From contig NC_091667.1 of the NCBI RefSeq assembly GCF_042453785.1, positions 36,200,001 through 36,264,000 on the forward strand: DNA of 64,000 nucleotides. Reading direction: 5' to 3'. This DNA comes from Malus domestica. Taxonomy: Eukaryota > Streptophyta > Magnoliopsida > Rosales > Rosaceae. The notes below the pieces were generated by a model. It was not told where the DNA came from. It saw only the letters and a list, made by a program, of their open reading frames with translations, and did not search any database. This document shows positions 16,231 through 52,559 of this stretch, piece after piece. The position numbers and the translations under genes were made by a program. How positions within the stretch are numbered: the stretch's first letter is position 1; the number at the start of each line of letters is the position of its first letter.

Positions 16231-16317
16231 GGAAAGGGATCCTCTTTGGATCCTTTCCTCCTAATCCACTAAGTCCGGGGATTTGAACCATTAAAATTTG
16301 ATCTAATGGGTACAAAC

Positions 16318-23295: not shown

Positions 23296-23312
23296 TTTTT
23301 GGATTTGGTGTT

Positions 23313-23314
<2 letters not shown>

Positions 23315-23371
<57 letters not shown>
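23315..23371. repeat. GA microsatellite in COMT pseudogene leader
   Basis: Expanded equivalent of the tract at 11586-11625. Confidence 0.9.
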
Positions 23372-23375
<4 letters not shown>

Positions 23376-23849
23376 AGATGAGGAGATGACGAGGAGGAAT
23401 GAGGGTAGAAGAGATGGGTGTGCTAACTAGCAATATATAAGGATTTATTTAGTCACCCACCACCTTGCCTTATTAATAATATATAAGGATTTGTTTACTC
23501 ACCCACCACCTTGCCTTATTAATCCGTAATTAGATTGAGAGGAGCTGAATTGAGAAGGAAATGAATTGAGAAGGAATTGGAATGAGGTGAAATCATAATC
23601 AAGTTCATGTTAAAGGCGTTTACTAAAATTGGTTGAAATCAAAGTATGAATGATATTGATATATAAAAATTGTTTACTAATTCACATGAATCGGAATAAA
23701 AATTAATGTGATTACTAAAATACGCCTATTGTAATTAATTTATTTTATATCTAATTATTTTTAGTAAAACTAATATTCTTTCATTTTTCAGTAGAGAGAA
23801 TAACTATTTTTTTCATTTTCTAGTAACTTTTATTCTTTCATTGGTCCTT

Positions 23850-24289
23850 ATCAGTTACCAACATAAAATAAACTCCAAGAAAAAAAAATTCACTCACTAT
23901 CCTCTCTGCTGTTGTGCCGACCCATCCATTTCTAAATTTCCCAGGCACATCTCTCTCTCTTCCCCTATCTTCCCCATCTTTCTTTGCTGACCCACCCCTT
24001 TCCAAAATTCCCCAGGCATCTCTCTCTCGTCCCCATCTTTATCTGCTACCGACCCACCCCTGATCGCGAGACCACTATCTTTCCTTTTCTTTGGTCTTCA
24101 TCGAGAACGCGAGCCTTGTTAAGCAATGGCTTGAAGGCAACACCCACCTATGGCCAACTATCACAATCACAACGGTTGCAAACACTGGCACCGTTCTCAT
24201 CTTTGGAGTTTGAGGGTATTACCTTTATAAAATTTGGATTCTTGATGTACACCATTTCTAGGAATTCAAATACCTCATCCCACTCAAGA
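23850..24289. mobile_element. Unclassified insert, private to copy 2
   Basis: Copy 1 reads GGTCCTTACCACTCAAGAATTGG across this position (near 12045). Copy 2 has about 440 extra bases starting near TTATCAGTTACC and ending near CCTCATCC. The interior is more GC-rich than its surroundings, and one plus-strand frame near 24100-24200 reads like a protein piece (LVKQWLEGNTHLWPT). I do not recognise it. It could be another element carrying host DNA. Confidence 0.45.
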
Positions 24290-25640
24290 ATTGGACTCCG
24301 ACATTTCAAGAGTTGAATTCCTGATTTTGTGCTGGTCCCACAATTATTTGAATTCCTGATGGTTTGGTAACCGCTAGAATGATTGGGGATATGTGCAATT
24401 TTAGTTCCCACCATCCCATTCCCCTTTGGTAAACATGCCTTTCATGTGGTACCAAGTTTTCAACCACCATGCAGGACCCCACATGCCTCCCACAGGTCTT
24501 ACCTTTTAAGTCTAACTTTATACTATACTCTTTATCTGGTTTTGTTTTGTTTTATTTCCTTTTAGGGATCCTTAAGAGTATTTATACTTATATTTAAGGT
24601 AAAAATTTGTTATTAGCACTCCAAAAATCTCATTTAGCACTCCAAATTTTCTATAATTAAAAAGAAAAATACACTTAAAAGGAATGTAAAATGAGATTTT
24701 TGAAGTGCTAATAAAAATTCCCTTAAGGTATTGTGTTTAATATTTTTCTCTCTTAGATTTGTTTTTGAAAAATATATGAACAAACTTAATGATTATTTAC
24801 ATATCCAAACTTTGATGGCGAGTCAGGGCACAATAGAAATGTTGATCCTGTGTAACCGGAAAGTCATGGGTTCAAGTTGTGGAAACAACCTCTTTACAAC
24901 GTAAGAATAATAATGCGTACGATAAACGTTTATCAACACAAAACGGAAAGTCTTGTTGGCTTGCAGGCCCTTTACAAATCCAAAACTTTCCTATCAAAAA
25001 GTGTAGTTTTCTTCAATACAATGTTATACTCGATGGTTTAAATTAACGCAAACGCATTTCACACCAGTATGTCTACTGATATATTGTTCTCTTGGAGTTG
25101 AAGTTGGGAGAACTGGAAAAAAAATAGTGAATTGCTCCCTTTTGAAGTCCTTGTAGCTGGTGATAGAGCATAGTTTACAATAAGGTTGTTGTCATTTATT
25201 TATTATATGTTATGGTGTTTGAAAAGTTTTTAAGTCCAAAGTTTTTCTCCCTAGTTGATTCGGCAAAACAAGTTACTTAATCTAAGCAATTGTGAAATGA
25301 AACAAAGAGGCTGGAACGACATTGGACAAACTATAAAAGAACAATTTGCATGGAACGAATTTATCGTTATTGTATTACTTTAGTTCAATAATGTAATAAA
25401 ATGTCTAAAATAATTTACACTAACATTATATAATAAAAATGAAACGACACGTGATGATAACACATTCCATATAAATCCTTACAGTATTTTTTATCAAGCA
25501 TCATATTTTCGTCAAGCTCAAAAGATAATATACTAAATTGAGATGATGTCATTGCCATCGTTTGTGTTGTCCTGACTAATCCATGAAAGGGATCGGTTGT
25601 CTTGGCAATTTACAAATAGGAAACAAATAATTAAAAAATA

Positions 25641-25912
25641 TGTGATAATTGTTGTAGTCTTATTAAATTATGAATGTGATTGTGTAAATCATAGTGTATC
25701 TAGAGGTATCTTGAAATATTCTCTAGGGTTAGATATTATCCTATTAGAGTTGTAATCCTATTGGGGTAAGGAATTTACCTTTCCTACTATTATAAATAAA
25801 GGCACAATGGGGTGGAATAGAACATATCTCACAATTACACATCTATCTCTTCTCTTTCTATGCAGCACTCTCTCTTAACTTTTCAGTAAATTATGCCTAC
25901 AGCATGTTATCA
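25641..25912 (+). mobile_element. Copia-like LTR remnant (copy 2)
   Basis: Starts TGTGATAATTGTTGTAGTC, with TATA-like CTATTATAAATAAAGGCAC, and ends near TTATGCCTACA followed by GCATGTTATCAACAC. Counterpart of 13503-13774, so the insertion predates the duplication. Confidence 0.5.
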
Positions 25913-27337
25913 ACACACTCTTGACGCTGCGCTACAGAGAGTTTGTTCTTCAATCATGGAAGTATTACATTTTAATCATTCTTTTTATGATTACTTTATT
26001 ATTTTATTGAATTGATCTACATGTTATTGATTCGATTTAATTTTTCTTTGTTGTACGTGATACAACGCATTGGAGATGCAATTCCGGCTTTTAGAGAAGG
26101 ATATTCTAGAAATTCAAAGGCTTAGTTGTTTTCTGCCAATCAGGTTTCTTTAAAATAAATTAAGATATTTGAAACGACCGTGAAACATGAAAGCATTCCC
26201 CATGATGTATGAACACCCTATATTTATATTTTCCTTTCAATTATATATATTGCATATGGGTTCATATATTTTGTCAATATATATACACACACACACATAT
26301 ACTTGTTCATGCAATACGCAATTATACTATGTGGAATTTGTGAGTCAAAGCATCGAAATTAATTTAGAAGCAATTAGGGTTTTTAACCCTAGAATTTGAA
26401 AAAACAAATTTAAAAAAAAAATACTGGGATTCTTGCAGCATAGGTCGCGGCTTGCCGTCATGCCACCAGAGCACCACTGCTGGCTTGCAGCCAGCCGTGT
26501 TGAGCACGCCCCCTGGAATGACGTCGTTTTGACATCTAGACTATGCAGCAACCCTTTAGGCTTTGCTACGCCTACACGGACACCAGGCATCGGCCTGGTA
26601 AGGTTTACCGTAGGCCCGCAACCCCTCCCGCCCAAACCAACAACTTTTGAGTTGTTGGGCTTTGTCCCTAGTCCCTGGCCCAAACCTGCCAACAGTCTTA
26701 GGCTGCTGGGTTTGCACTACACATAGCCCAAATTGAAGCTAGCCCGCGGCTGGGCTTCATACGCACCTATCCCAGGCAAGCCCTATGTTGGGCCTGTACT
26801 CCCCGCACCTTTTTGTGGCTTAGAACCAACAGTCTAGCTGCTAGGCCTATCCCAGACCTACGACTCGTGGCCTGCAGCCATGATTGGGCTATCTTACAAC
26901 CAACATGTGGCCTACTAAGCCTTTTTAGGGCCTTGCCTTGTACACGATACCCTAGCCCACTGGGATTGGGCTATAATTTTTCGAAACCAATGTTATTCTT
27001 TGGCATTCCCGCTAATATTAACCTGAATGTTATTATTATTTTTCTTCTACGATCAAACCTGAATGGTTATGATCTATTAAATTATTTAAAGTGACTAGTA
27101 GTCCATTAATCTGACAATTAATCCAAAATTATTGGCCTGAAGCCCACTTTTTGGCAATTAACGATTCAGTAAATTATTTCTTTTCTTTAACCTGTTGACT
27201 CCATTTCGTAGTTCCGAAGCACTCACACTTGAGTTCCTGAAGCAATCTAAATCCACTACACTTAGTTGTTTATTGTATTTTGTGTTCTTACAGATACCTC
27301 CTTTTATGAACCAGAAGTTCATAAAACAAATTGAACT

Positions 27338-27936
27338 TGTGGATACAAATTTCTTCCTCCTTGTTCTTGGACAAAACTACACCTACAAAATAAATAACAC
27401 CTTAGGTCAAGGTCAAGAGCCTCACGTGTCCACGATGAATGGAGGGGGCTTTGGCCGAAGAACCTCCGATGTCAAAGTTAGAATTTTGAGGGAAAAATGT
27501 TTGGAGAATTTAGCAAGAGAATTGAAATTGAGTTTTGGAGAGAATGAGGTAGTATTTATAGGGGTGTGGCCGGCCCCTTTAGGAGGAGGAGGACCGGCCA
27601 CTTGGTTGGTATTTTGGGTGAGGTTCATGATTTGTAGCCAATTATGAATAATTGAATAATAAATCAATTAATTAGCTAATTAATAGAATAATTTCCTAAT
27701 TGATTAGCTAATTAATATAATCAAAGATGAATGATTTGGGAGTTACCTTGTGGAGAGGATTTGATGAGGATGGATGAAATAGGTTTCGAATTATTACCTA
27801 TTTTGGACACTTTTGACTTGATTGAGGGATGATTACCCACTACTCGTGTGTAGGAGTCCCGGTGTGCCTTGAGGGTAATTTTGTCATTTTTACCTAAAAA
27901 TCCACATGTTGCCTTGTGATTATTTTTGGCTCCACA
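27338..27936. mobile_element. Probable solo LTR, private to copy 2
   Basis: Insertion of about 600 bases between GAACT and a sequence matching copy 1 at 15290. Ends TGTGGATACAA and GGCTCCACA form the TG..CA border with a short inverted TGTGGA/TCCACA. A TATA-like GTATTTATAGGGG lies near 27550. The target duplication is not clean, so exact ends are uncertain. Confidence 0.5.
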
Positions 27937-28861
27937 TAACCTATAGTTTCAAATTTAGTGCCTTTGAAACCTGAAGTTTTTATAAAACAAATACACACAT
28001 GAATTGCTAAGGGTTGAGTGTGCTTGCAGTGAGGGCCCCAACATTGCAGGTTTGGTCGCTTGACTCGCCTCACAAGCACGTAAACTACGTGCGCCTAACA
28101 CACAAAAATAATAATAATAAAACATGGCTAACGCCAGTTCCACTTAGGCGCTGAGTTGGGCTATTCATGCTCGATTAAGCAGTCGGATTCTGCTTCCTTC
28201 CACTGTAGCTCGACTCATTGGGGTGGGGTGGAAAGGATTTTGGGGGTTTTGAGGGATTTAGTCACCCAACTGCTTGAGCAATTGAGAATAGTGGACTTGC
28301 CCTTATTACCATTGTTGTTTTGTGAGTCTCACACACATAAACGATTTGAATCAGTTTCAAAATTAATCTAAATAATCCTATGGAAATTGATCATTTCAAT
28401 GACCAAACAAAAAAGGTTAATAATTTCTGGACTTTGAATAATACTATGTTAATGTCAATATCTGCTCAAACTAATCACTCTCTCTGAATCTTTTGGTAAG
28501 GATCATGGGGATCCGTAAATTGTGTCCGTTTATAGCACATCATGCGGTCAATTTTTGTCAAGTACTATTTATGTTTATTTTTAAATAAAAATATTTAAAA
28601 TGATTTCTAACTGTACGATGTATGATGAATGGACACAATTCACAGATCCTCGGATCCGGACTCTCAAACTCCATGAGGTAAATCGATAAATGGTATTATT
28701 TAATTGGCTAGGGTTTGACAAACAACAGGGAATCACTGTCACATCTCTTCTAATATTTTGAACATGTTGACGACAGATCGGATGCAGCTCTTGGTGACAA
28801 AAACAAATTCCAATTCCACCTCTTAGTTGGATTGCTCTCTTTTTGTTTGGAAGAAAAGGGA

Positions 28862-29070
28862 AAATGATCCTCTTCGGATCCATTCCTCCTAATTCATGAA
28901 GTCCGGGGATTCGGACCATTGAAATTTGATCCAACGGCTACAAACAGGGACCCACTTTAAAAGTTATAATAACTTTTGCCGTTGGATCAAATTTCAATGG
29001 CCCGAATCCTCAAACTTGGTGGATTAGGTGAAAGAGATCCGAAAATGATCCATTTCCGAAGAAAAGTAAT
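28862..29070. mobile_element. Foldback MITE (uninterrupted copy of the hAT target)
   Basis: Palindromic segment centred near CCACTTTAAAAGTTATAATAAC, with arms GATCCTCTTCGGATCC and GGATCAAATTTCAATGG. Its copy at about 16228-17460 is split by the hAT element. Same family as 12225-12428. Confidence 0.6.
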
Positions 29071-29309
29071 CTTTCTAGAACCAAAAGAGGTACAAAGGTC
29101 TCCCCTCTTTAAAAAAACGTCTTCACCAACCATTAACAAAACTTCTTCACCAACCATGCAAAAGTATTAAAAATTTAAGAGAGATTAGTTGTGCAAAATG
29201 TTTAATTAAAATATTTGCTCACCAATTTAGATTTTCATTGATTAGTTTGCGCTTTCCACAATACAAATGCCTAAAGTATGATGTATTAAGATATGACTAG
29301 CCTTCATGT

Positions 29310-30240
29310 AGGCCTTCTTACGCTTGCAGAAGGCATTTTTTTAATCACAGCGTGCTACTTGCGACTTATACGTTTTAAATGTATTTATATGCGTAAATTG
29401 ACAAAAGGAAAGTCAAATATTTGATTAAATGAATAATCTTAGATCATGTTAGAAGAAACCCCTCATAAACCAATTAAAGCAGCTGAATTCACATAATAAA
29501 ATCGGTCTCTATATAATTTACATTAAGAATAGAGAAAATAATATTAAATGAACAACTGATTGAATCCCATTATTGCTAGACTATTGTGAGGCTAAGCTCA
29601 TCCCTTCCCCCTTAGTGTAGAGCGCGTACATAAGACATTTTTTTGAATCACGGCATGCTACGCACGACTTCCACATTTTAAATGTATTTATATGCGTAAA
29701 TTAACAAAAGAAAAGTCAAATATTTGAAGCAAATGAATAGTTTTACATCACGCTAGAAGAAACCCCTCATAAACCAATTAAAGCAACTGAATCCACATAA
29801 TAAATCGGTCTCTATAGAATTTACATTAAGAATAGAGAAAATAATATTTCGTAAACAACTAATTAAATCACACTATTGCTAGCCCATTATGAGGCTAAGC
29901 ACACCCCTCCCCCTTAGTGTAAATAATATTGTTTGTTAAAAAAAATAACTAATTTAATGTTAATAAACAACTGATTGAATCATACTATTGCTAGCCCATT
30001 GTGAGGCTAAGTCCACTCCTCATCCCTTTAGTATAGATAATATCGTTTGTTAAAAAAAATTATTTGACAACTAATTTAATCACATTATTATCCGCGTGAG
30101 AAAGACATTTTTTATAACCGACATTACACGCCTCTTAAGATGTTGTGAACATATTTAAAAATAGAGAAAATAATATTTCATGAACATCTGATTGAATCAC
30201 ATTATTGCTAGCCTATTTAAAATAAAATAAAAAGAAAAAA
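29310..30240. repeat. Degenerate tandem repeat array (copy 2)
   Basis: Counterpart of 17700-18640, with the same unit landmarks and internal indels. Confidence 0.65.
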
Positions 30241-30581
30241 AAATGTACTAATTTATCACCGGCATTACGCGCCTCTTAAGATGTTTTAAACACAACATTC
30301 ATGATTTTTCTTATTTTTATTATATTTTTTATTCTCCTTCACGTGGGCACCATCAACTTTCACTCATCCTTATTCCTTTCTCTCTTCTCATTTATATTTA
30401 TATTTTATTTTATGATAACCAAATTACCAAATTACCCATGCATTATTTGATATATTATATTGGACTGCTTCTGGATTTTTTTGGTTGAGAGGCAATTTTG
30501 TCCTAATATATTTTTGTCGAAGCCGTGACACCAAATCAACAGTATTCATTGCCCTATTCGCTATATATATATATAATACAG

Positions 30582-30592
30582 ACATACATACA

Positions 30593-30664
<72 letters not shown>
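30582..30664. repeat. ACAT and AT compound microsatellite
   Basis: About nine ACAT units followed by an (AT)n tract. It produces spurious Tyr/Ile/Cys/Val low-complexity frames on both strands. Confidence 0.95.
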
Positions 30665-30667
<3 letters not shown>

Positions 30668-31260
30668 GATAGATGTTGAATGTTCCACTAAATACATTAT
30701 TAGCACTACTATAAGATATATTTGTTCTCTTGACATGAACGGTGGAGATTGCATCAAAGGGTTTTAAATTTAACTATTTGAGTAACGTGCAACATTTATT
30801 CTCCCAGACAGAATCCTTCATCCACCATTATCGTTTGTAATTTGGTGGCCGAAGCTTCTAACAAAGCAAAATACAAAGATGTCCATACCCTTAACAGGTT
30901 TATGGGGAATGGATATGTAAGGTTATAGTATTGTTCTCTTTCATGATATATACAGTAATTTTTTTGAAAGCAATACTCTATAATGGTGAATAATCTCTTT
31001 AAAGTCATAAAAAATTCATGTCCCATGTATAACCAGTTCTCTATATTGTAATAAGTTATAATTAGGGCCCAAAAAAACCTATTTAGGAAATACATAATAA
31101 AAGGATCGTGGGTCAGGTATGTTCTTGAATTGAAAGATTCAAACCTTCGAATAGCGGCATTCATTAAGGATAAATAAGTTAATAAATAATATTTTAGGTA
31201 TGTAATGGAATAAACTACATATTGTAACAAGTTATCATTTTTGTTTCTCTTATCTTGAGG
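30665..31260. repeat. Array-border repeat X, copy 3
   Basis: Matches 2880-3909 plus 5131-5190 with the Pack-MULE missing, and so provides its empty site near 31220-31250. The open frame at 30796-31266 on the minus strand is the counterpart of one at 3342-3704; it has no domain and is interrupted between copies, so I do not call it a gene. Confidence 0.7.
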
Positions 31261-34908: not shown

Positions 34909-35421
34909 TGTTGATGCACAAAATCAGCGAATACTTTGGTACAACAGAAAGTGTCAGGTTTTGTGACCTTCGCTTGGTTGCTTCGATCACTAGTGAGGAT
35001 AAGTACGTAAATGAATAGAGACAGAGAAGCAAACACAGGATGTACGTGGTTCACCCAGATTGGCTACGTCCACGGAGTAGAGGAGTTCTTATTAGTAGTG
35101 AAGGGCTTACACAAGTACAAAGGATCAAGCTCTCAATTTAGTGAGTTCTTGTGAATGATTTAACACAAAATGGCATTAGGCAATATTGTGGGGGGATGAC
35201 CCCTATTTATAGAAAAACTTGTAGCTTTGTCACATTGACACGTGTCATGTTATGATTGGTTCTTGATGTTGACACGTGCTGCGCTCTGATTGGCTTCTAA
35301 TCTTGACACGTGTTGAGTAGTGATTGGCCTCCTGGTCGGAGGGGAACTCTTCTGGGTCCTTGACAGTATAGCGTTGGCCGGTGCTCGGTAGTTTCGGGAT
35401 TGGTCAAGTATGGTACAAACA
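34909..35421 (-). repeat. 3' LTR (element orientation)
   Basis: 513 bp, TGTTGATGCAC to GGTACAAACA as read on the plus strand. It differs from the other LTR at one position that I can see (GCGAATACT here, GCGAAGACT there). Confidence 0.95.
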
Positions 35422-35434
35422 GTGCTCCCCTAAG
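35422..35434 (-). promoter_or_regulatory. Polypurine tract
   Basis: On the minus strand a purine-rich TTAGGGGAGCAC directly precedes the 3' LTR, the expected place for plus-strand priming. Short and impure. Confidence 0.5.
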
Positions 35435-37309
35435 TTCCCGAGTGAGGGAAACTCCTCGGTTGGGGACTTGCAAGATCCAATCCCTTGAGTAATCACGAAA
35501 CTTCTAAGTACCGAAGTGTGGTCTGATCTTCATCTGCCCTTCTCTGGAAGTACCTTTCCTCCATCCGGGAATGGTGTACTTAGCTGATGTTGACGCACAA
35601 GGTAATGTATCAATTTCACTTGAAGCTTAGTTGTAGTTTCGGGCTTAGTCAAGTGTGATACAAACCCTATAGTAGGAGTCCCCCAAGTCGCCGAGCTAGG
35701 AGATCTGCCGAAAGAGGTGACAGACAAGGTAAGCAGTCAAACTTCCAAGTAAGCAACCCAGGATCAGAGGTTTGACGTCGGCTTCCGGTTGATTGTTCTC
35801 ATTCTCCTTGTCTCTCATTCAACTGCCAGGATAAGGAGAAGCAAATGGATAAGAGATGATATGAGATACTTTTGCTTTTGAAGAAGTAACTTTCCACAGG
35901 CTTATTCTTGAACTGTGCTGGAGGGTTTTCTGGTGCCCTTCAGAGTATAAGGCCGACTCAAAAATTTGAGGGTCAAAACAAGTCCATCAAATCTAGAGTA
36001 CGTTCGACCTTGATGATATGGGATACTTTTGCTGTTGACGGAATAATGAATGTGGTATGGAAAGGTGTCGTGCTGTAGTGATCTGTTTCAGCTCACCGTT
36101 GAACCTTCTGCTTCAATCTTTTGCATGGCAGAAGTGGTGTGCAACCTTTGCATTTAAATGGTCCTTCAGAACATTCCTTCATAGTGACTCATCCACGCTT
36201 GGCAGCTTCAGTGTAAAGAGCCAATATCTGATCAACTGTCATGAGGTATTTGCCGGTGGAATTCGTGACCTTGACAGCAGTTGAGGATGAGTACTCGAGA
36301 GCAATGCTAAGTAAGCAACCAGGCAAAGGCTCCAGGCAGTCAGTTCCAAATTGGAGGTTTGATTTCAGGTTCCGACTGACTGCTCTCTTTCTCCTTGTCC
36401 TGCAGGTGTGGACAATGACAAAGACAAAGACAGGGAGAAAGCATGATATGGGATACTCTTGCTTTTGACCCTGATGATATGAGATACTCTTGTTCTTGGT
36501 GTGGCTTATTTGCTGAGGTATTATCGGGGGGAAATAAAGCTGAGTATTTCGAGAGGTTATGTTGAGGGTGCCTTTTCGAATGTGAGAAAGGGTTGAGCAT
36601 TTTTGCAGGTTTGCCTGTCCGTTGAGGAGGGAGGTCAATGTATATAGGGATTTCCCAATAACAAGTAGTAATGCTATTCCTTTACCCTTCTTGGTCACAG
36701 CAATGTAGTGGGAGCTGCCAGCTTCACGTGTTTTAATTTTGTCAGAGCACTTTGAAAAAGTGGTATGTGGTATCTGGAAAGCTGATATTACGTGTGGAGA
36801 TTACAGACAAGCTTTATCTAAGGAAATCTGGCTCTCGAAGTTCTGAGAGTTGTGCCTCTTCGGTTTTCGAACAAGCAATCCCGTCGAGGATCTGACTCTC
36901 GAGATTCGGAAAGCGGTGCTACTCCGGTTTTTGAGAAAGTAATTATGTTGGGAGTCTTTTCTCGAATGTGAGTAAAGGTTGGACGTTCTTGCCAACCTGT
37001 CTTGCCGCAAAACCCGGAGGTCGACACACATAGGGACTTTCCAGTTGTCAAGCAGTGGTGCTGTTCCTTTACCCTTATGGGTAATAGTAGGGTAGCTGGA
37101 ACTTCGAAATTCTCGTGCCTAAACTTTGTCAGAGATCTTTGACAAAGTTATATGTGGTACCCGAGGAGTTGATGGTGCATATGGAGAGCGGTGATTGAAC
37201 AGTAAGATTCACGTGCTTTCTACTTCACCAGAAATCTTCGACAGATTGCCCGTAATTTCCGCAAAGCTGAGTGTGCATGTGACAGGTGCTGACGAGGCTG
37301 AAAAAGCAG

Positions 37310-37455
37310 GTGCTTCTTCGATTTCTGAGATCGACCCTCGTGGTCTCTGAGCAGCCCAGCTTTTGAGAAAGCATTCGCCTCTTCGATTTCTGAGATCGGC
37401 CCTCGTGGTCTCTGAGCAGCCCAGCTTTTGAGAAAGCAAACGCCTCTTCGATTTC
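37310..37455. repeat. 68-bp tandem repeat in retroelement 3' region
   Basis: CTTCGATTTCTGAGATCG followed by CCTCGTGGTCTCTGAGCAGC is present twice, with a partial third start. It generates Arg/Ser-rich frames on the minus strand that are not genes. Confidence 0.8.
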
Positions 37456-37475
37456 TGAAGCTCCGTCGAGTGCAG

Positions 37476-37485
37476 ATTTTTATAG
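37476..37485 (+). promoter_or_regulatory. TATA-like element of antisense ORF
   Basis: TTTTTATAGAGGC lies about 115 bases upstream of the antisense start codon and is followed by a pyrimidine-rich leader. Position and context fit a plant core promoter; no experimental support. Confidence 0.45.
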
Positions 37486-37591
37486 AGGCTGGCATTAAGT
37501 TCCACAGCACACTTGAATCTCTACCAGTAGAAGCTCATTTCTTGCACTTCTAAGATCTTGATTTGTCTGACCTCTTCCTTCTTCAACACAT

Positions 37592-38272
37592 TTGAAAATG
37601 TCTGGACCCTCCGACCGTCGTTTTGACTTGAACCTTGGAGAAGAGACAGCCACGCCTTCTCCAGACAACATATGGCGCCCATCCTTCATATCCCCTACTG
37701 GTCCTCTTACCGTTGGGGATTCTGTGATGAAGAATGATATGACCGCTGCAGTGGTGGCCAGGAACCTTCTCACTCCCAAAGATAACAGACTACTTTCCAA
37801 ACGGTCTGATGAGTTGGCTGTTAAGGACTCTCTGGCTCTTAGTGTTCAGTGTGCAGGTTCTGTGTCTAATATGGCCCAACGCCTATTTGCTAGAACCCGC
37901 CAAGTTGAATCATTGGCTGCTGAAGTGATGAGTCTCAAACAGGAGATTAGAGGGCTCAAGCATGAGAATAAGCAGTTGCACCGGCTCGCCCATGACTATG
38001 CTACAAACATGAAGAGGAAGCTTGACCAGATGAAGGAATCTGATGGTAAGGTTTTACTTGATCATCAGCGGTTTGTGGGTTTGTTCCAAAGACATTTATT
38101 GCCTTCGTCCTCTGGGGCTGTACCTGGTAATGAAGCTTCAAATGATGAACCTCCAATGCCTCCTCCTTCTGGGGTTTTGTCAAGTACTGAGGCTCCGGAT
38201 AACCACCCTCCGGTGCTTTCTCTTTCTGGGGCTCTACCGACTGCTGAGACTTCCCCTAAGCAACCTTTGTGA
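37592..38272 (+). CDS. Antisense ORF of the retrotransposon (coiled-coil protein)
   Basis: 226 aa, or 224 from the second Met, on the strand opposite to gag-pol and between pol and the 3' LTR. The N-terminus has FDLNLGEE (residues 11-18). Residues 94-150 have the heptad pattern of a coiled coil (VESLAAEVMSLKQEIRGLKH). The C-terminal 60 residues are Pro/Ser-rich with three imperfect SGxLPxxE-type repeats. It has its own TATA-like box upstream and AATAAATAAG 65 bases downstream. Antisense ORFs in this position are described for Tat-type elements; their role is not established. The intact frame beside a broken gag-pol is notable. It is not related to any enzyme I recognise. Confidence 0.7.
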   Translation: MKMSGPSDRRFDLNLGEETATPSPDNIWRPSFISPTGPLTVGDSVMKNDMTAAVVARNLLTPKDNRLLSKRSDELAVKDSLALSVQCAGSVSNMAQRLFARTRQVESLAAEVMSLKQEIRGLKHENKQLHRLAHDYATNMKRKLDQMKESDGKVLLDHQRFVGLFQRHLLPSSSGAVPGNEASNDEPPMPPPSGVLSSTEAPDNHPPVLSLSGALPTAETSPKQPL

Positions 38273-38334
38273 AGGCTCCCTTTTGTTTGTTTATTTTGAC
38301 TCATGTATATGTACATATTTGTGGCTTATCGAAA

Positions 38335-38346
38335 ATATTAATAAAT
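38335..38346 (+). terminator. PolyA-signal-like element after antisense ORF
   Basis: TTAATAAATAAGC about 65 bases after the stop of the antisense ORF, preceded by TGTATATGTACATATTTGTG, a far-upstream-element-like TG-rich stretch. Confidence 0.4.
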
Positions 38347-38779
38347 AAGCTTTGCTTCATTTCAACATATTATGTTAAATACACCAAAGCCTTCTTCATA
38401 AAGTTCTTTGAATTTTTGCTTTTGTTGAAACCTGTATTGTTGAAGCTTTGTGAGTGAAGCATGTAGTTTGAGGTAGTGTTCCCTTAATTTCCCGAGTGAG
38501 GAAAACTTCTCGGTTGGAGACTTGAAAAATCCAAGTCACTGAGTAGTCACGAACTTTTGAGTACCAAGGCGTAGTAGCATATGGTGGGAGTCCCCCAAGT
38601 CTCTAGTCGAGGGAGTTGACGAATGAGGTGTCTTGCTAATAGTCCATGTCGTAAGTACCAAAACTTCATTCTTTTGTTTTCTAAGTGGTAGCCCCGGACG
38701 TTTTCTTCATAGATTTTGTTGATGAAGGTTGCTAGGCCCGAATAAGTGGAATTGCAGAAGGTGTAACCGTTGGTGCATT

Positions 38780-38875
38780 AACATCATAATGGAAGCATCA
38801 CAATGATGGAAGCATCACAATGATGAAAGCATCATAATGATGAAAACACCATAATGATGAAACATCATAATGATG
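38780..38875. repeat. Short tandem repeat CATCATAATGATG
   Basis: About six imperfect 13-17 base units mixing CATCA(T/C)AATGATG with GAAAG or GAAAAC. Each unit is itself an inverted repeat (CATCAT/ATGATG). Confidence 0.75.
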
Positions 38876-38984
38876 TTTCTTTGGTGGAATTGTTTTTCAT
38901 TTCCCCTAACAACCGGAATTGTTTTTCAACATAACACCATCATCTGTAGGTCGAATCACAAAGTTGTCTTCATGAAAGTTGTTC

Positions 38985-39720
38985 GTTAATTCCTTAACTA
39001 CAACATATCCAAATTGGAGAGCCATCGGAGCAGTACAACTCCAGAAATCCAGGTATGATGAGTGACTGTTTATCATTTGTCTGTCAACCCGTCAGATTTG
39101 TTGTGAGCTTTGAAACTCTATTTTCTCTTGCTCAGATCAGCATGCTTTCTTCATTGAAGTTGTTCCTCAGCTTATGAACTACAACATATCCAAATTTGAG
39201 ATCCCTCGGAGCTGTATAACTCAAGAAACTCAGGTATGATGAATGACTGGTTATTATTTTTCTGTCAACCCGTCAGATTTGTTGTGAGCTTCGAAACTCC
39301 ATTTTCTCTTGTTCAGATCGGTATGCTTTCTTCATTGAAGTTGTTCCTCAGCTTGTGAACTACAACATATCCAAATTTGAGATCCCTTGGAGCTGTATAA
39401 CTCAAGAAACTCAGGTATGATGAATGACTGGTTATTATTTTTCTGTCAACCCGTCAGATTTGTTGTGAGCTTCGAAACTCCATTTTCTCTTGTTCAGATC
39501 GGTATGCTTTCTTCATTGAAGTTGTTCCTCAGCTTGTGAACTACAACATATCCAAATTTGAGATCCCTCGGAGCTGTATAACTCAAGAAATTCAGGTATG
39601 ATGAATGACTGGTTATTATTTGTCTGTCAACCCGTCAGATTTGTTGTGAGCTTCGAAACTCCATTTTTTCTTGTTCAGATCGGTATGCTTTCTTCATTGA
39701 AGTTGTTCCTCATCGACTCT
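38985..39720. repeat. About 180-bp tandem array in retroelement
   Basis: Four units with CTACAACATATCC at about 39000, 39180, 39360 and 39540, the middle ones almost identical. Every unit carries CAGGTATGATGA and, some 90 bases later, TTTTCTCTTGTTCAG, so on the plus strand each looks like a small exon followed by a short intron. Non-coding as far as I can see. Confidence 0.85.
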
Positions 39721-40279
39721 TTCATAACATATCAAAAATTCAGGATGAACTAACGGTTAAATATTTCCAGATCTTCGAAACATCACAACAGCTTCGAAAT
39801 CTGCAAGAAGCCGACTATCATGTTTGGAGCTTCAACACTTTAATTTCCGTCGCTCAAACAGAAATGGTTCCTTCTTGAAAGTTGTTCATATGCTCAAGAA
39901 CTATAGGGTGTCCAAAATTCAGCTCCATTGGAGAAGAGCAGAGGTTGCAGAAATTTGATAGATGAAAGGAGGCGGAAGAGGGAGAGAGAGAAAAAGTCTC
40001 TTGGGTTGGATTTCTATTTTGGGGCAGATTCCAATTTTTGTAGCACCTTCATTATTGATGAATTGCTTGTACTTTTGTCCATTATGAAATTTGGGACTTT
40101 GGCTTGTTGTTGGATCTATTATAATATGTTTGGGAACATATATAAGTGAATAAATAAGAAGGAAAATTTTGGGCCCTTATGGGTGTAAAACAAAAAATGT
40201 TTATGTTTACCCAAGTGTTTGTGTACAAGTTCAAGGGCATCTTGGGTTTTGTGAACAAAATTTGTTTATTTGGAGCAAG

Positions 40280-40628
40280 GTTTTGTGTTGAAGCTTTGTA
40301 GGTGAAGCTTTGGTGTTGAAGCTTTGTGAGTGAAGCTTTGGAGGTGAAGCTTTTCGGGTGAAGCTTGTTGGGTGAAGCTTTTTAGGTGAAGCTTTGTGGG
40401 TGAAGCTTTTTAGGTGAAGCTTTTCGGGTGAAGCTTTTTGGGTGAAGCTTTTTAGGTGAAGCTTTTCGGGTGAAGCTTTTTGGGTGAAGCTTTTTTAGGT
40501 GAAGCTTTGATGGTGAAGCTTTTTGGGTGAAGCTTTGATGGTGAAGCTTTTTGGGTGAAGCTTTTTAGGTGAAGCTTTGTGGGTGAAGCTTTGGAGGTGA
40601 AGCTTTTCGGGTGAAGCTTTTTGGATGA

Positions 40629-40632
<4 letters not shown>
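40280..40632. repeat. Minisatellite GTGAAGCTTTTNGG
   Basis: About twenty units of 16-19 bases around GGTGAAGCTTT, each holding an AAGCTT palindrome, followed by a run of T. It lies just beyond the end of pol. Confidence 0.9.

Positions 40633-40672
<40 letters not shown>
40628..40672. repeat. Poly-T tract
   Basis: More than 40 T in a row; on the element's sense strand it is a poly-A run at the 3' side of pol. Confidence 0.95.
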
Positions 40673-40883
40673 GCGCTTGACACGGTCTTCATTTGCTTGT
40701 TTTGTAGTGACTGTGGAAGACAGATTGCTTTCTGATTGAGAAGGGTTCCGGCATCGCTTGCTATGAATGTAAAAGAGTGAGGGCTGAGTTGGCTAAATTA
40801 CCTCTTTATTGAATTCATTGCCAAATGGCCTTCATTACATAGGATGCCGAACGGCTATAGCTCAACACTTGTACATCGTGAGT

Positions 40884-42947
40884 CTATTTGTAGTAGTACT
40901 TCAAGTGATCAGCGTTCCATGGATGGCCAAGGGTCTTGCCATCGGAGCTTCTAAGTGTGTAAGAGCCAGGGCGACTGATGCCAATGACTTCATACGGTCC
41001 ATCCCAGTTTGGACTAAGTGTGCCTTCACTCGGGACTCTGTCGCAGAGTAATCTTTTCTTTAAGACCCAGTCTCCTATTTTGAAAGAACGAGGCTTGACC
41101 CTAGAGTCATAATAGTTGGAGATGCGCTGCTTGTAGGCGACATTCCTCAAGTGAGCTTGGTTTCTGTGTTCCTCGACTAAATCCAAGTTGAGGGTGAGTT
41201 GTTTGTCATTTTCACTTTGAATGTAGTTCTGGACTCGGAATGTTGCTTGCTCGAGCTCAACAGGGACAACCGCCTCTGTGCCAAAGGCAAGTGAGAATGG
41301 AGTTTCTCCTGTTGAAGTCCGATATGAAGTGCGATATGACCAAAGAACTTGGGGTACAAATTCTGGCCAACAGCCTTTAGCTTTGTCCAAGCTGGTTTTC
41401 AAAGTGCGCTTGATTATTTTGTTGATGGCCTCAACTTGTCCATTAGACTGGGGATGAGCTGGAGAGGCAAAGCATAAGTTGATGTTGAACTTAGAGCAGA
41501 ACAACCTGAACTTCTTGTTGTCAAACTGTCGCCCATTGTCAGTGACTATCGCATTGGGAATGCCGAATCTACAAAGGATGTTCTTCCACACGAAGTCTTC
41601 TATCTTTGCCTCAGTAATGGTTGCCAAGGGTTCTACTTCGGCCCACTTTGTGAAGTAGTCCACTGCAACGACTGCGTAACAGACTTTGCCCTTCCCTGCC
41701 GGCATTGGGCCGATCAAATCAAGTCCCCACTGGGCGAAGGGCCAAGGGCTGATCATAGGAGTAAGAGGCTCTGGAGGGGAATGAGGAATAGCCGCATATC
41801 GTTGACATTTGTCACATGAGCGGGATACTTTGATGGCATCCTGGTGGAGTGTTGGCCAGTAATATCCTTGGCGAAAAGTCTTGTGTGCTAGGGACCGAGA
41901 TCCAGCATGATCTCCACAGACTCCCTCATGTATTTCCCGAAGGACGATTTCCGCCTCGGCAGGCGTAAGACACCTTAAGTATGGCAGGCTAAAACCTCGC
42001 TTATAGAGTTGATCATTGATGATCAGGTAGCGGGTAGACTTGTATCGAATTTGCTTAGCCTGGACTTTATCATTTGGGAGGGTGCCATGAGCAAGGAAAT
42101 TATAGATCGGGGTGATCCAACTATCCCCCCGTTGTAAGTTGCATACTTCTGCGGCCATGGTGCTTGGTGTTGCCAACAGTTCGACATGAATTTTTCTTCC
42201 AATCTTGTCTTCCACAGCTGAGGCGAGGCGAGCCAGGGCGTCTGCATGACTGTTTGCCGCTCGAGGAACTTGGGTGATCTGGTAGTGGAAGTGCTTGAGC
42301 AAAAGTTGTGTTTGCGCAAGATATGCTGCCATGGAGCTGTCCTTAGCATCAAAGTTGTTGGTAACCTGGTTGACCACTAATTGGGAGTCACTGAAAATAT
42401 CAATTTGTTTAACCCCGAGGTGTTTGGCCAAACGTAATCCTGCTAGAAGGGCTTCATACTCGGCCTCATTGTTTGATGCCTTGAATTTGAAACGAAGAGC
42501 ATACTCCATTGCTACTTTGTCGGGCGTAGTCAAGACTAGTCCCGCTCCACAGCCCTGTTGGTTGGATGAGCCATCAACATACAGACTCCATGCTGAGGTC
42601 GTTGATTCTACTTTCTGAGCTTCCGATGGTAATGAAGCTACTGCTTTAGGTGTAGAAGCAATGTCAACAGGATATGTGAAGTCGGCGATGAAATCTGCTA
42701 CGCTATTGCCCTTCTCAGCTGGCTTTGGTTGGTAGGAGATATCAAACTCAATTATCCTCAGGACTTTGGAGTATCTGTCGAAGAGGATAATTGGTAAGCA
42801 CGATGATGGAGTGCGCTTGGAAGTAAGGGCGGAGTTTTCGAGCAGACATGACCAATGCCAGAGCCAATTTCTCAATGTTAGAGTACCGTGTCTCCGCATC
42901 TTGTAAGGCTTTGCTAGCGTAGTAGACAGGTCGCTCAATATTCCCAT
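40884..42947 (-). pseudogene. Retrotransposon pol, RNase H and integrase part
   Basis: 687-codon open frame; the first 65 or so codons are out of frame with the homologous reading. RNase H follows (YVDGSSNQQGCGAG near residue 125), then the integrase zinc motif (HEGVCGDH..CDKCQRY), the integrase core with GLDLIGPM, TDNGRQFDN and QSNGQVEAINK, and a C-terminal HLKYYYK end. The enzyme would remove RNA from the hybrid and insert the DNA copy. It overlaps the upstream ORF by 200 bases in another frame. Homology moves from one frame to the other near 42765, which I read as a small deletion in the RT-RNase H connection. Expression would need a frameshift. Confidence 0.85.
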
Positions 42948-45900
42948 CCTTTCGAATGAGAACGGAACTTACGGATGAAGCTGATACCGATAGGTAGATA
43001 ATGAGAATGTCTCCTACCTCGGGCTTGGAGAGTAGAGGGGCTTTACTCATGTACTCCTTGAGGTTTTTGAATGCCTCAGCACATTCATCAGTCCATGTAA
43101 TGTACTTCCTACTTCCCTTAAGTGCTTTAAAAAAGGGAGCACATTTGTCTGTGGCCTTAGAAATGAACCTGGTTAAGGCTGCCACCTTGCCAGTAAGGCT
43201 CTGGATGTCCTTTGAAGTTACCGGTTCCTTCATGTCGAGGATTGCTTTGATCTTCTCGGGATTAGCTTCAATGCCTCGTTGGCTAATCATGAAACCTAAG
43301 AATTTGCCAGAGCCTACGCCGAAGGCACATTTGTTGGGGTTTAACCTCATTCGATACCTCTTCAAAATAGTGAAAGTTTCATATAGGTTGGTGATGTGTT
43401 GGTCAGCATGTTTGCTCTTGACTAACATATCATCAACGTAAACTTCCATGCTCTTCCCAATCTGCTCGGCGAACATTGAGTTGACTAGTCTCTGATAAGT
43501 CGCTCCTGCATTCTTTAGGCCGAAAGGCATGACTTTGTAGCAGTATAGTCCTCTGTCAGTAGTGAAGGCTGTGTGTTCTTGATCCGAAGGGTTTATGAGG
43601 ATTTGGTTGTATCCTGAGTAAGCATCCATGAAGCTCAGGAGTTCACACCCGGCCGTAGAGTCTATAAGTCTGTCAATAAGAGGAAGAGGGAAGCTATCTT
43701 TCGGACACCCTTTGTTTAGGTCGGTGTAGTCAACACACATTCTCCACAAGACCTTTTGAAGCAAAAGACTTTCTTTGGTCGGATTTTTCTTAACAAGGAC
43801 CACATTTGCTACCCATGTCGGGTAATTGACTTCGCGGACAAAGCCTATGCCTTTGAGTTTTTCAACTTCTGCTTTCATTGCCTCGTATCGTTCAGCGTCA
43901 TAAGATCTTCGCTTCTGTCTCACCGGCTTGATCTTGGGGTCAATACTCAAACGATGACAGATGACATCGGGAGAGATGCCTGGCATGTCCTCGTATGACC
44001 AGGCGAAGACTTCAGTGTTCTCTTTCAAAAAAGATATCAATGCTAACCGAAGGGGTGGTGACAATGTGGTGCCAATCTTCACCATGCGATCTGGATAATC
44101 TCTTGAGATAGGTACCTTCTCCAACTCTTCAGCAGGTTGGGCTTGCTGGGTGAAAGAGTCATCTCGAGGATCATCGGGTTGATTGTTGCTATCAGGAAGA
44201 TCCAAGTTCGCTTCATCTAGGCTGGTCTTTGTGACTTGGTCATGTACAGACAGGGTTTCCTTGGGTCCGGGCAAGTGTTGTTGCTTAACTGAAGTGTTGT
44301 AACATGATCGTGCACTAAGCTGATCTCCTCTGATGTAGCCGTTGCCATGGGGGGTTGGAAATTTCATCAACAGCATATGCGTGGATACCATAGCCTTGAG
44401 ATCGTTGATGCCTGTGCGCCCAAAGATGACATTGTATGCCGTTGGGCAGTCAACCACTAGGAAGTTAGTGGTAATGGTAGCTGTGTAAGGGCCTGTACCA
44501 ATAGTAAAGGGTAAATGTATGCTCCCTAAGGGTTGCACGATATCACCGGAGAAGCTTATCAGAGGAGAAATCGAGCGATCGAGCAAGTGTTCAGCTACAC
44601 TGAGTGCCCTGAAAGCTTCGGCAAACATGATATTGACCGAAGCCCCTGTGTCTACGAGGATTCGTCGAACATCAAAGTTGGCTATGTGAGCCTCCACGAT
44701 CAATGGGTCGTTATGAGGGTAGATGATGCCTCTTTCTTCCTCAGGGTAGAAACATATCGGATCCCAGTTAGGCTTTTGATACTTCCCTCCCCTGATGTCT
44801 TCCACGTGAAACACTTGGTGACCAGGCCTCAGAATTCGTTCACTGTTTTTCATGGCCCTATTGGAAGATTCAGATATGGGTGTGCCGCCGCTTATGGAAT
44901 ATATGACATTCACCTGGCGTTGGTTACGGTTATCCCTTTGAGGGTGAAGGAGGAATTGATCAATTTTTCCTTCTCGTGCCAAAGCTTCAATACGATCACG
45001 GAGGATGATACATTTCTCGCTATCATGGCTGTTATGCTCATGGTAGCAACAAAACATGCCCGCGTTATTCGGGGGCGTGTAATCTGGGTGCCTCGGCTTT
45101 GGCTTTGGTATCAGGTGAGCTATGCTGGGGTAAATGGCCGCGCATGTGGCATTCAAGGGCGTGTATGTCTCATACCTTGGGGTAGGGGGTATCTTGACGC
45201 GGGTTTGACCCACTGCATTGACTGCCTGGGGGCGAGCGTTATTGTGGCGATACCCTTGGTTATCGGGATAGTGTCCCTTACTCTTTTTACTGAAATGAGA
45301 GTGGTGAGGATGGAAATCCTTCCTCTTGCCTTGAAATTGATATGTCTGTTGATTCGGCGAAGCATTATGCAAGGCATGGGGAGGTGCCACTGCTGTTTGG
45401 AAAGTCGAGGTCTTCTCATTTAGGTGAGTCTGGCTTCTACCTCCCACTTGTTGATAAATGATGGTTGTAGGGGGTTTCTCCTGATATGTCTTTGCCTCGG
45501 CGGAGGCATGGTTATAAGCCTGCGCCATCACCTCAGAGTAAGTCTTCCAAGTATTGGCATTGATCATGTATTTAAAGAAACAATCACGTAGGCCTGCCGT
45601 GAAGGCTTTGAGGGCAGTCTTGTCGTCTGCCTCGGCACACCGGGAGTATTCATGGCTGAAGCGGCCAGCATACATACGTAATGACTCGTCTGGCTTCTGG
45701 CGGATAGTGTACAGGTCATCTGCAGAGTGCAAGCGATCGGTTTGGAAAATGTGTTGGGAAACAAATAGTTTCCTCAATTCCTCAAATGAGTCTACCGTCT
45801 CAGGTGTAAGACGACAATACCAATTTAGAGCTCCGCCAGAGAGGGTGGAGGGGAAGAGAAGACATCGCTCTTCGTCGGTGTGCATCCGGTATGCCATGGT

Positions 45901-46341
45901 GGACTCAAAGAGGTTAAGGTGCTCAATCGGGTCCTCTTTTCCAGTATAAAGTTGCAAGCCAAGCTTTTGCTTTGTCTTTGCTTGAAGGGGGGTGTTGAGG
46001 ATCCTCCTTGTAAGAGGGCCAGGCCTGGGTTGGTTCCAGTCAGGTATTTCAGCCTGACGTTCAGCCTTCAACTTGTTTACTTCCTCAATAAGTTGTAGGA
46101 CAAGGGGGTCCTGAGCGGAGTTATGTGCCACTGGAGCTTTCTTTCGTAAATCTCCATCTCCTCTTGGAATTAGGAAGGTTTGATCAAGGGCATGTGATTT
46201 TTCCCTGGACTCGTTGTACTGGCTTCCAGGGTATGTCTGTCGGAACACCTCTGAGTCCCCTGTACCCTCATGTCTCTCTAGGACTTGTTGCCCCTTCCCC
46301 AAATTAGTGGCCGGCTCGGGCCGTGGCAGGGGACCGAGTCT
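42748..46341 (-). pseudogene. Retrotransposon gag, protease and reverse transcriptase part
   Basis: Open reading of 1184 aa from the first Met at 46302; the frame is open from 46341. Gag domain at residues 112-240 (LNWYCRLTPE), a CCHC-like CCYHEHNSHDSEKC at 418-431, aspartic protease DTGAS at 551-555, and reverse transcriptase with MDAYSGYNQ and the catalytic YVDD at 955-958. RNase H starts near the end and is cut off by the frame change. A short insertion-like stretch (ESLLLQKVL) precedes WRMCVDY, unusual to my eye. The true gag start is probably 46860, in the same frame, but a TAG at 46344-46342 separates them. Confidence 0.9.
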
Positions 46342-46860
46342 CTAAGAAATCCTTGGGTCATTGATCTTTGAGCTTATATGGATGGAATTCTCTCGACGTT
46401 GCTTCAGGAAATCCCGACAATCGCGAAAGACGGCTTTCGATCCTTCTGCCCCTTCAGCAAAGAGGTGTCTCCCTCCACTTCTCATGGTTCGGGTCGAAGC
46501 AACTGGGTTAAGAGAAGCCTCATGTTGATTATCAAGTCGAGGGGTAATCTGTTCCCTATCAGGGATATCTATGTCGAATGCATGTGACCCTCCATGTTGG
46601 AGGGCACCCAGTTGATGGTTGACTTCCACGGGGGCAACAAGCTCGCGTGTCTGAGCTTGCCTAGCTTCGTGGAGTGTCTCGAAGAGCTTCTCATATTGCT
46701 CCTGGAGGACCTCATTCCTCATTGCTATCTTGTTGTTCTGAGCTTCCAACTCATCGACTTTAGCTTGAAGAAGAACTCGTTTTCCTTCCTTCTTTCGTTG
46801 TTTCGCACTATGTGCAAGGGGGGTGTCATTCTGTGTGCTGTGGCTTCCTTCGCTTCCCAT
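46342..46860 (-). pseudogene. N-terminal gag segment, ended by in-frame TAG
   Basis: Starts MGSEGSHSTQND at 46860, has a coiled-coil-like stretch (LQAKVDELEAQNNKIAMRNE) and ends at TAG 46344-46342. The next frame on the same strand and in the same phase continues straight into the main gag-pol ORF, so a single nonsense codon splits gag. Readthrough is possible but there is no direct evidence for it. An upstream Met at 47091 lies inside the LTR and is not a plausible start. Confidence 0.75.
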
Positions 46861-46956
46861 GTTGGAGAGGGATGCCTGGTCAAAAGAAAGTGTACGAATG
46901 ATAGAAACCAGCTTGACACAGCTGAAGAGAGTAGGAATAAGTGTCGTTTCCCACAG

Positions 46957-46965
46957 ACGGCGCCA
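46957..46965 (-). promoter_or_regulatory. Primer-binding site (Asp-tRNA type)
   Basis: On the minus strand TGGCGCCGT begins two bases after the 5' LTR and continues CTGTGGGAA. The first nine bases complement the 3' end of plant tRNA-Asp (established tRNA sequence knowledge). Confidence 0.75.
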
Positions 46966-46967
46966 AA

Positions 46968-47480
46968 TGTTGATGCACAAAATCAGCGAAGACTTTGGTA
47001 CAACAGAAAGTGTCAGGTTTTGTGACCTTCGCTTGGTTGCTTCGATCACTAGTGAGGATAAGTACGTAAATGAATAGAGACAGAGAAGCAAACACAGGAT
47101 GTACGTGGTTCACCCAGATTGGCTACGTCCACGGAGTAGAGGAGTTCTTATTAGTAGTGAAGGGCTTACACAAGTACAAAGGATCAAGCTCTCAATTTAG
47201 TGAGTTCTTGTGAATGATTTAACACAAAATGGCATTAGGCAATATTGTGGGGGGATGACCCCTATTTATAGAAAAACTTGTAGCTTTGTCACATTGACAC
47301 GTGTCATGTTATGATTGGTTCTTGATGTTGACACGTGCTGCGCTCTGATTGGCTTCTAATCTTGACACGTGTTGAGTAGTGATTGGCCTCCTGGTCGGAG
47401 GGGAACTCTTCTGGGTCCTTGACAGTATAGCGTTGGCCGGTGCTCGGTAGTTTCGGGATTGGTCAAGTATGGTACAAACA
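46968..47480 (-). repeat. 5' LTR (element orientation)
   Basis: 513 bp. On the minus strand it runs from TGTTTGTACC to GCATCAACA and has a TATA box CTATAAATAGGGG at about 47260-47272. The plus-strand reading of the last bases abuts the AGTAG target duplication. Confidence 0.95.
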
Positions 47481-48671: not shown

Positions 48672-49964
<1,293 letters not shown>

Positions 49965-50171
49965 CTGGCCAAAATCGTAGTTTTCCTCAAGCTCATTGTT
50001 TCCCTAATGAGTGTTTCGAATCAGTGTCGTGTCGGTCATTGGGATTTTTAGCTCAATCGGAAGCCCGTCTATGTGGATCTGGATTATGCTTCTCTTTTTC
50101 TTTTGTGGACTCAAAACATTGGCTGTGATCGCCGTCAGGTTTTCTGATGTACTTCACTCCCGAGTCATGAG

Positions 50172-50640
50172 TTATTAAAGGTTTCTATTGTCATTTTTAA
50201 TTCTTTCACATGAGAGTTGTCTGCTTCATGGATAAGGACGTAGGATTGCCACTAGTACTAATGATATTTTTCTCTACCTGTAAGCGAGATGTTTTAGCTT
50301 TGATAACGAGTTTATAACTAGTCGATTCAAATTATAGTGTCTATAGGGTTATTTGTCGTTTAGCGTGGTTATGTTGTCATTTGGTGTTACAGTTTAATAA
50401 GGGGTCTTAGGTTTGACTTTCAAAGATGAACTCTTGCCAAAAGGAAAGCGTTTTTTGACATTCATTCTCTCTGTGTACACTTTTGTTTGCTTATGACTTT
50501 CGGTTTAGTTAAATCAAAGGAGAATCAATATGATGTTCAATTAAGTTAAATTAAAGAAGAACTAATAAACAAAAACAAGCAGTGAAGAACGGAGTTAGAA
50601 ACCAGAGCGTGTGCGAAAATCGTTTTCCTATAAGAAAATA
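50172..50640. other. Spacer between NAC-alpha genes
   Basis: 3' flank of gene 1 and upstream DNA of gene 2. No further gene seen. About 880 bases separate the two coding regions. Confidence 0.4.
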
Positions 50641-50654
50641 ACGCAGGTGATTTA

Positions 50655-50715
50655 ATGATTGGGCTTGGTGGTGCCGCCAAAAACTAGCGGCCCATTCCGA
50701 AACCGAAACCCTTTG
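50655..50715 (+). promoter_or_regulatory. Site-II and telo-box-like motifs, NAC-alpha gene 2
   Basis: TTGGGCTTGG and GCGGCCCATT followed by GAAACCCTTTGCCCTCGCGAA, matching the gene 1 promoter block (GGCGGCCCAATT..GAAACCCTTACCCTCGCGAA). Confidence 0.6.
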
Positions 50716-50845
50716 CCCTCGCGAATCATCACGTCTCGGTCTCTATACACCGCTGCGCCTGCGTGGTGGTAGCCGAATTGCTACTCTTCAGTCTTCATAT
50801 TTATCAGTTTCAGAGCTTCTAGATCTCCGCCACCAAACCCGAAAC

Positions 50846-52171
<1,326 letters not shown>

Positions 52172-52559
52172 TTGTTTTCCTCGCGCTCATTGTCAGTTGA
52201 TGATGAGTTTTTTTTAATCAATGTCGTTCGTTCACTATTGTCATCCAATCGGACGCGGGTCTATGTGTGGATGTATTGTGCATTTCTTTTCTTTTGTGGA
52301 CTCAAAACATTGGTAGTGAGGTCTTCTGGTTTGCTGATGTACTTCACTCCTGTGTCATGAGTTATTGAGGCTTCTATTTCATCCTTTAATTCTGCCACAT
52401 TAGAGTTGTCTCCTCCATCAATTCGGAACTAATTTTACGAAAATTCTAGAGCACATCAATGAATCTTAACCGCGGAATGTGTGCTAGAAAATTCAAGGTA
52501 ATTAACTGATGAATATGAGCAACTTAAAATGCAATTTATACTTTGCTTTAATTTGTAGG

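Follow-up and report, generated by a model that had tools for sequence, protein, structure and literature searches.

A selected antisense gene with its own core promoter and an EAR-like motif, present in four kinds of LTR element of the apple genome

A retrotransposon in the apple (Malus domestica) genome carries, on the strand opposite to an interrupted gag-pol, an open reading frame bordered by promoter-like and poly(A)-like signals, which raises the question of whether this frame is a gene in its own right and, if so, what its protein might do. Two papers on the antisense genes of plant retrotransposons describe what these genes do as unknown in their accessible portions (PMC7264820, PMC11963269). 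We analysed the locus within a window of 64 kb of plant nuclear DNA and searched the genome (651 Mb in 19 contigs) for relatives. The gene described here is under selection, has a conserved core promoter, lacks TRP28, and occurs both in elements that have pol and in types in which no pol was detected.

The frame lies in a whole Ty3/gypsy LTR retrotransposon with Tat/Retand-type domain order (34909..47480, minus strand), flanked on both sides by the target-site duplication AGTAG. Its two 513-bp LTRs (5′ LTR, 46968..47480; 3′ LTR, 34909..35421; both minus strand) are identical at 512 of 513 positions, and primer-binding-site-like sequence beginning TGGCGCC lies inward of the 5′ LTR. Because the LTRs differ at a single base, this copy is very young. 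The coding region consists of two minus-strand frames that overlap in different registers, the first (42748..46341) containing gag, a protease-like DTGA recognised by eye, reverse transcriptase and RNase H (RT and RT_RNaseH), and the second (40884..42947) containing an RVT_3 RNase H followed by the integrase zinc-binding (H2C2) and core (rve) domains. Gag-pol is interrupted twice, by an apparent in-frame stop just upstream of the first frame, which cuts off the apparent N-terminal part of gag, and by a frameshift near the end of the first RNase H domain. An RNase H, then a second RNase H, then integrase is the order given for Ogre and Retand in the part of Neumann et al. (2019, PMC6317226) that was available; the window element has the archaeal-type RNase H, placed after the first RNase H and before integrase, that marks Tat/Retand, an order that fits Ogre equally well. 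The distance of about 5.46 kb from the end of pol (40884) to the LTR (35421) and the LTR length of 513 bp both fall inside the ranges for Retand elements (2,933-6,566 bp for the pol-3′ LTR region, with an antisense ORF, and 315-1,194 bp for the LTR).

The region between pol and the 3′ LTR is rich in repeats. A 14-bp minisatellite (24.8 copies, 40289..40636) adjoins pol, a 181-bp tandem repeat (4.0 copies, 38996..39712) separates pol from the antisense gene, and a 65-bp direct repeat (37299..37458, plus strand) precedes the TATA box of that gene. Further upstream of the gene, a conserved block (36275..36875) recurs, complete or partial, at 65-74% identity in the three other types of element; it looks non-coding, and part of it is repeated at 35722-35878. 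Rfam identified nothing in the window at gathering scores. Elsewhere in the window there is a tandem duplication of about 12 kb (8199-19041 and 20360-30810, pieces 84-93% identical), each half of which contains what we take to be an O-methyltransferase-like gene, and a tandemly duplicated gene at 49364-52418, presumably resembling the alpha subunit of the nascent-polypeptide-associated complex.

The original prediction described an intact ORF of 226 aa opposite to gag-pol. The frame is indeed present and open, but 226 aa is reached only from a TTG at 37592, while the ATG at 37598 gives a protein of 224 aa (37598..38272, plus strand) with a motif at residues 9-13, a conserved segment at 23-60, a predicted coiled coil at about 65-167 and a variable Pro-rich tail. 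Likewise, the ORF is antisense to gag-pol but does not overlap it, as it sits between pol and the 3′ LTR, 2.6 kb past the end of pol. The signals that had been proposed around the ORF are borne out by comparison among copies. A TATA box, TTTTTATAGAGG, lies at 37477..37488 (plus strand), and its TTTTATA is conserved in 25 of 26 copies within -135 to -100, at about -120 from the ATG, the exception being the decayed copy L063. It is followed by a C+T-rich 5′ leader (37499..37597, plus strand) that is conserved between families; its 37512-37597 portion is 64% C+T, a value matched by 4% of same-size stretches in the region. Downstream, the 3′ UTR (38273..38360, plus strand) contains AATAAATAA at 38340, and 11 of 14 copies inspected have AATAAA beyond the 3′ end of the ORF, with L021, L059 and L076 lacking it in the stretch examined.

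The upstream alignment covered the 255 bases before the start in 26 copies (6 of the first two types and 20 derived from the codon-pattern search described below), several of them near-identical, including among the 6. Across these 26 copies, TTTTATA is the sole run of at least 7 columns at 85% conservation or more. When 8 representatives are taken alone, the longest run (10 columns) again falls at the TATA box, and a second run, of 8 columns, lies within the leader. Columns above the TATA box average 0.21-0.40 conservation across three stretches, compared with 0.75 in the three from the TATA box to the start. The antisense gene is shown to be a self-contained unit of high copy number with a conserved TATA box, leader, ORF and, mostly, a poly(A) signal.

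The genome searches scored the best candidates only, so the copy counts favour intact and similar copies. In the DNA search, the best 40 of 3967 candidates were all near-identical; in the protein search, the best 150 of 10207 candidates were all 99-100% identical, and 147 of these 150 lacked a stop. A synonymous-codon pattern led to one divergent copy and, through it, to a second type, for which 149 of the best 150 of 10055 candidates lacked a stop. A second pattern matched 256 places, compared with 0 for the control, and at least one of the matches listed was a window-type copy; 20 places fetched from the matches listed, picked for varied codons, were all relatives (20/20). Eight of these 20, with intact frames, entered the substitution counts, and 12 with stops, shifts or no ATG were left out. 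Among these 20, copy L070 opened up a clade that differs at the N-terminus (LDLSL), for which the best 150 of 9874 candidates were 81-100% identical, 79 without and 71 with a stop by hand count; five ORFs of this clade were fetched. Three LDLSL-type genes on contig C2 (8870063, 8875091 and 8880119) are spaced by exactly 5,028 bases, resembling a tandem array of a single element, and three pattern matches on contig C5 (36268953, 36277987 and 36287022) lie about 9.03 kb apart in a possible tandem array.

The coiled coil that had been proposed for the protein agrees with structure prediction. AlphaFold2 models a long helix at residues 60-167 from the single sequence (block-mean pLDDT 88-98 over 81-160) and at residues 65-167 from an 11-row alignment. 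Both models place a short helix ahead of the long one and give residues 1-48 low confidence, and these residues were not resolved with the 11 aligned rows. From residue 103 the sequence can be read as heptads (VESLAAE-VMSLKQE-IRGLKHE-NKQLHRL) with an Asn at one a position, which together with the modelled helix supports a predicted coiled coil. Conservation is strong across the helix and the segment at 23-60, and the Pro-rich tail varies freely. No Pfam domain scored over the cut-off, a DNA-binding domain among them, and no PDB sequence matched below E 0.39, the matches below the cut-off being generic coiled coils; no relatives were confirmed in viral or prokaryotic contigs. A bZIP basic region carries the signature N-x7-R-x9-L in register with the zipper. 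The protein has N91-x7-R99, but its zipper leucines (106, 113, 120 and 127) are out of register by eye, and bZIP_1, at E 0.11 in L019, is under the Pfam cut-off and is not listed for P0001; we therefore rejected a bZIP assignment.

Near the N-terminus, residues 9-13 of the window protein read FDLNL. The corresponding residues are FDLNL in 11 copies, LDLSL in 11, FDLNI in 5 and FDLNF in 4, so that [FL]DL[NS][LIF] describes all 31 of 31 copies, a count that includes several near-identical and decayed ones. The surroundings of this core are far less stable; between P0001 and L070, only M1, P4, S5, D10, L11, L13 and T17 agree by eye among the first 22 residues. EAR motifs are LxLxL or DLNxxP and were first described as L/FDLNL/F(x)P, according to the portion of the source available (PMC6479872). 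A strict LxLxL (LDLSL) is present in 11 of the 31 copies and confined to the LDLSL clade, and the other 20 have FDLN[LIF]. Because the window FDLNL is neither strict LxLxL nor DLNxxP, its form appears to be near-EAR, and the LDLSL form would count as strict EAR. The resemblance to EAR that had been suggested for DLNL is thus supported in part, by a five-residue core kept amid changing neighbours and by a clade with the strict form, although the window form itself is not strict.

Taken as a reading of the sequence, the gene most likely encodes a dimeric coiled-coil repressor adaptor acting in trans via TOPLESS-family co-repressors, a proposal to which we give roughly even chances. RNA polymerase II would transcribe the antisense gene from its own promoter; the protein would dimerise through its leucine-zipper-like coiled coil and enter the nucleus, where the N-terminal EAR-type peptide would contact TOPLESS-family co-repressors. 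The adaptor would then act in trans, either on host genes or on copies of the element, where it would influence transcription or chromatin and limit or redirect their silencing. The promoter and nuclear steps have an analogue in Grande gene23 as described in the accessible text of PMC7264820. Pairing an EAR peptide with TOPLESS offers a concrete and testable hypothesis for the role of an antisense gene. The protein might instead assist the retrotransposition cycle itself as an accessory factor in the nucleus, acting in cDNA import, integration targeting or packaging, with the DLNL-like peptide being incidental. Such a role would suit a gene that stays with the element and is kept in types of very different coding content, and the segment at 23-60 is conserved at least as well as the motif; against it, the motif core stays while the residues next to it turn over, and neither Pfam over its cut-off nor PDB below E 0.39 yields a match pointing that way. 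We regard an accessory factor as possible, though on balance doubtful.

Four kinds of LTR element carry the gene, which is antisense in all seven elements examined (1, 3, 2 and 1 of each kind), the orientation being taken from the PBS, PPT-like sequence or gag and, for the second LDLSL copy, from its homology to the first. The first carrier is the window type, a Tat/Retand-type element with gag-pol. The second, presumably Athila-like, is a long-LTR type seen in 3 copies of 7,987-9,850 bp, with LTRs of 1.74-2.09 kb and PBS-like TGGCGCCGTTGCCGGGGA; one copy has a 404-aa gag-like ORF with 28-34% identity to two frames of a neighbouring element and no match to window gag-pol, and tblastn of window gag-pol against two of the three copies (L050-L053) gave no match inside the element. 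The third is the LDLSL type, for which 2 copies have LTRs of about 0.35-0.4 kb and calculated total lengths of about 6.1 and 6.5 kb. It likewise gave no tblastn match to window gag-pol, the search covering gag-pol of the window type, and in the pieces listed (L079, L080) no stop-to-stop frame within the elements exceeds 182 aa. The fourth is a single copy (L082/L083) with an LTR match of at least 775 bp and a gag with PF03732 that is distantly like window gag (21% identity); no RT match was found within the 11 kb fetched. Pol was thus found in none of these three carrier types where searched, nor was gag in the two LDLSL-type copies. Window LTRs and gag-pol showed no DNA match to carriers 2-4 beyond short repeat matches, and the second and third types had only a short upstream patch in common in the pieces compared, the ORF itself left out.

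The gene could have become common to these carriers via recombination or template switching between packaged RNAs. In the window element, two directly repeated copies of PPT-side sequence flank the antisense module (35422-35516 and 38475-38568, 83% identical), which suits such a process; it was not found in one long-LTR, two LDLSL-type and one gag-only copy, and we rejected it as a general mark of module insertion.

Selection on the protein was evident from substitution patterns. The window type compared with four long-LTR-type copies gave NG86 dN/dS values of 0.175-0.199 at dS of 0.59-0.67. Among 12 intact copies (columns 1-172), dN/dS was 0.07-0.29 in 62 of the 63 pairs listed, with Fisher p < 1e-6 in 58 of 63; the three pairings of L019, L021 and L030 with one another were left out, and the lone outlier, L066-L070 (both in the LDLSL clade), had a non-significant 0.62. 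The neutral pattern that the original prediction had named as speaking against it is therefore not what is seen, and the protein has been under purifying selection across the history separating the types. Together with the conserved core-promoter and poly(A) signals, this identifies the frame as a real gene. By contrast, its openness beside a broken gag-pol, which had been taken as meaningful, says nothing on selection in the window copy because that copy is very young, even though the interruption of gag-pol itself was confirmed. Within the LDLSL clade (7 copies, 21 pairs, whole length), dN/dS was 0.32-0.77, with p < 0.05 in 9 of 21, so constraint there is weaker or diluted by dead copies; this would be expected if most copies decayed after insertion, and equally if the gene mattered less in this clade.

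It is also conceivable, and compatible with the other readings, that selection in one autonomous donor lineage alone accounts for the low dN/dS between families, with the pol-less families carrying a recombined passenger. The decay and the higher dN/dS of the LDLSL clade, with stops in 71 of its 150 best-scored copies, fit this account, as do the direct repeats around the module in the window element. L088 compared with L084-L087, all of the LDLSL type, nevertheless gave dN/dS of 0.32-0.39 (p ≤ 7.1e-4), and LDLSL-type matches are numerous, about half of the 150 best being without a stop; we regard the passenger account as possible, though less likely than not. It appears quite improbable that the antisense transcript, rather than the protein, is the functional product, forming double-stranded RNA with genomic RNA or giving rise to small RNAs. 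The promoter and orientation are conserved, and a 2020 review raises the possibility in its accessible part (PMC7264820), but selection acts at the amino-acid level and nearly all best-scored copies of the first two types keep the frame free of stops. A chance ORF on a non-coding strand, the length of which is modest evidence in itself (reached in 2 of 2000 shuffles), is already refuted by the dN/dS of intact copies and is at odds with the conserved TATA box and leader and the presence in four element types.

Returning to the repressor adaptor, a puzzle is why a presumed trans-acting gene is kept by an element without detectable gag-pol. The pol-less carriers might be satellites of such a repressor system. 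HBZ is a retroviral antisense regulator. A more far-reaching version, which we consider rather unlikely, would have a portable antisense repressor gene spreading among unrelated LTR lineages as the sole recognisable gene of a high-copy pol-less family, whose satellites recruit TOPLESS to control retrotransposon transcription as a plant counterpart of HBZ.

How does this gene compare with known systems? Antisense genes between pol and the 3′ LTR are a published hallmark of Retand elements (Vicient 2025, PMC11963269), and because the window gene is a selected antisense coding gene at that site, it is, by position, an example of a kind already published. With the TRP28-domain aORFs of Retand elements (PMC11963269) it has in common the position, the antisense orientation, a long tandem-repeat 3′ region and a suggested regulatory role, whereas it has no PF04195 and instead combines an EAR-like motif with a long predicted coiled coil, and occurs also in elements without the gag-pol of the window element. 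Searched at E up to 10, neither the ORF nor any of 9 further plus-strand pieces from the region showed PF04195 (positive control: 24 places in the genome), and hhalign against two TRP28 ORFs of the same genome found no profile similarity (probability 0.1), which led us to reject TRP28 membership; weak tblastn matches to a pair of TRP28 loci, at E 0.10 and E 1.0, were taken as chance.

Among the titles and abstract beginnings consulted, including few subscription papers, we found no link of such a gene to EAR or TOPLESS, and no report, in titles and abstract beginnings, of one such gene across several LTR lineages. In apple, the HODOR repeat, with a stated length of 9,716 bp (PMC13334179) or 9.2 kb (PMC6901071), is by its description similar to the long-LTR carrier in length and high copy number. 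As far as the available text describes it, Grande gene23 of maize likewise lies antisense within the 3′ internal region; it is reported to have a promoter of its own and to encode a nuclear protein, a nuclear location being reported for this gene only (Vicient and Casacuberta 2020, PMC7264820). PvRetro13 ORF2 and other SMC-like ORFs are also antisense, and their SMC-type domains, as described in the accessible portions, suggest coiled coils (PMC7264820, PMC11963269). Compared with EAR-motif repressors as presented in the part of PMC6479872 available, the antisense proteins lack a transcription-factor domain and the ERF-type proline, yet share with them FDLNL, FDLNF and LDLSL cores near the N-terminus.
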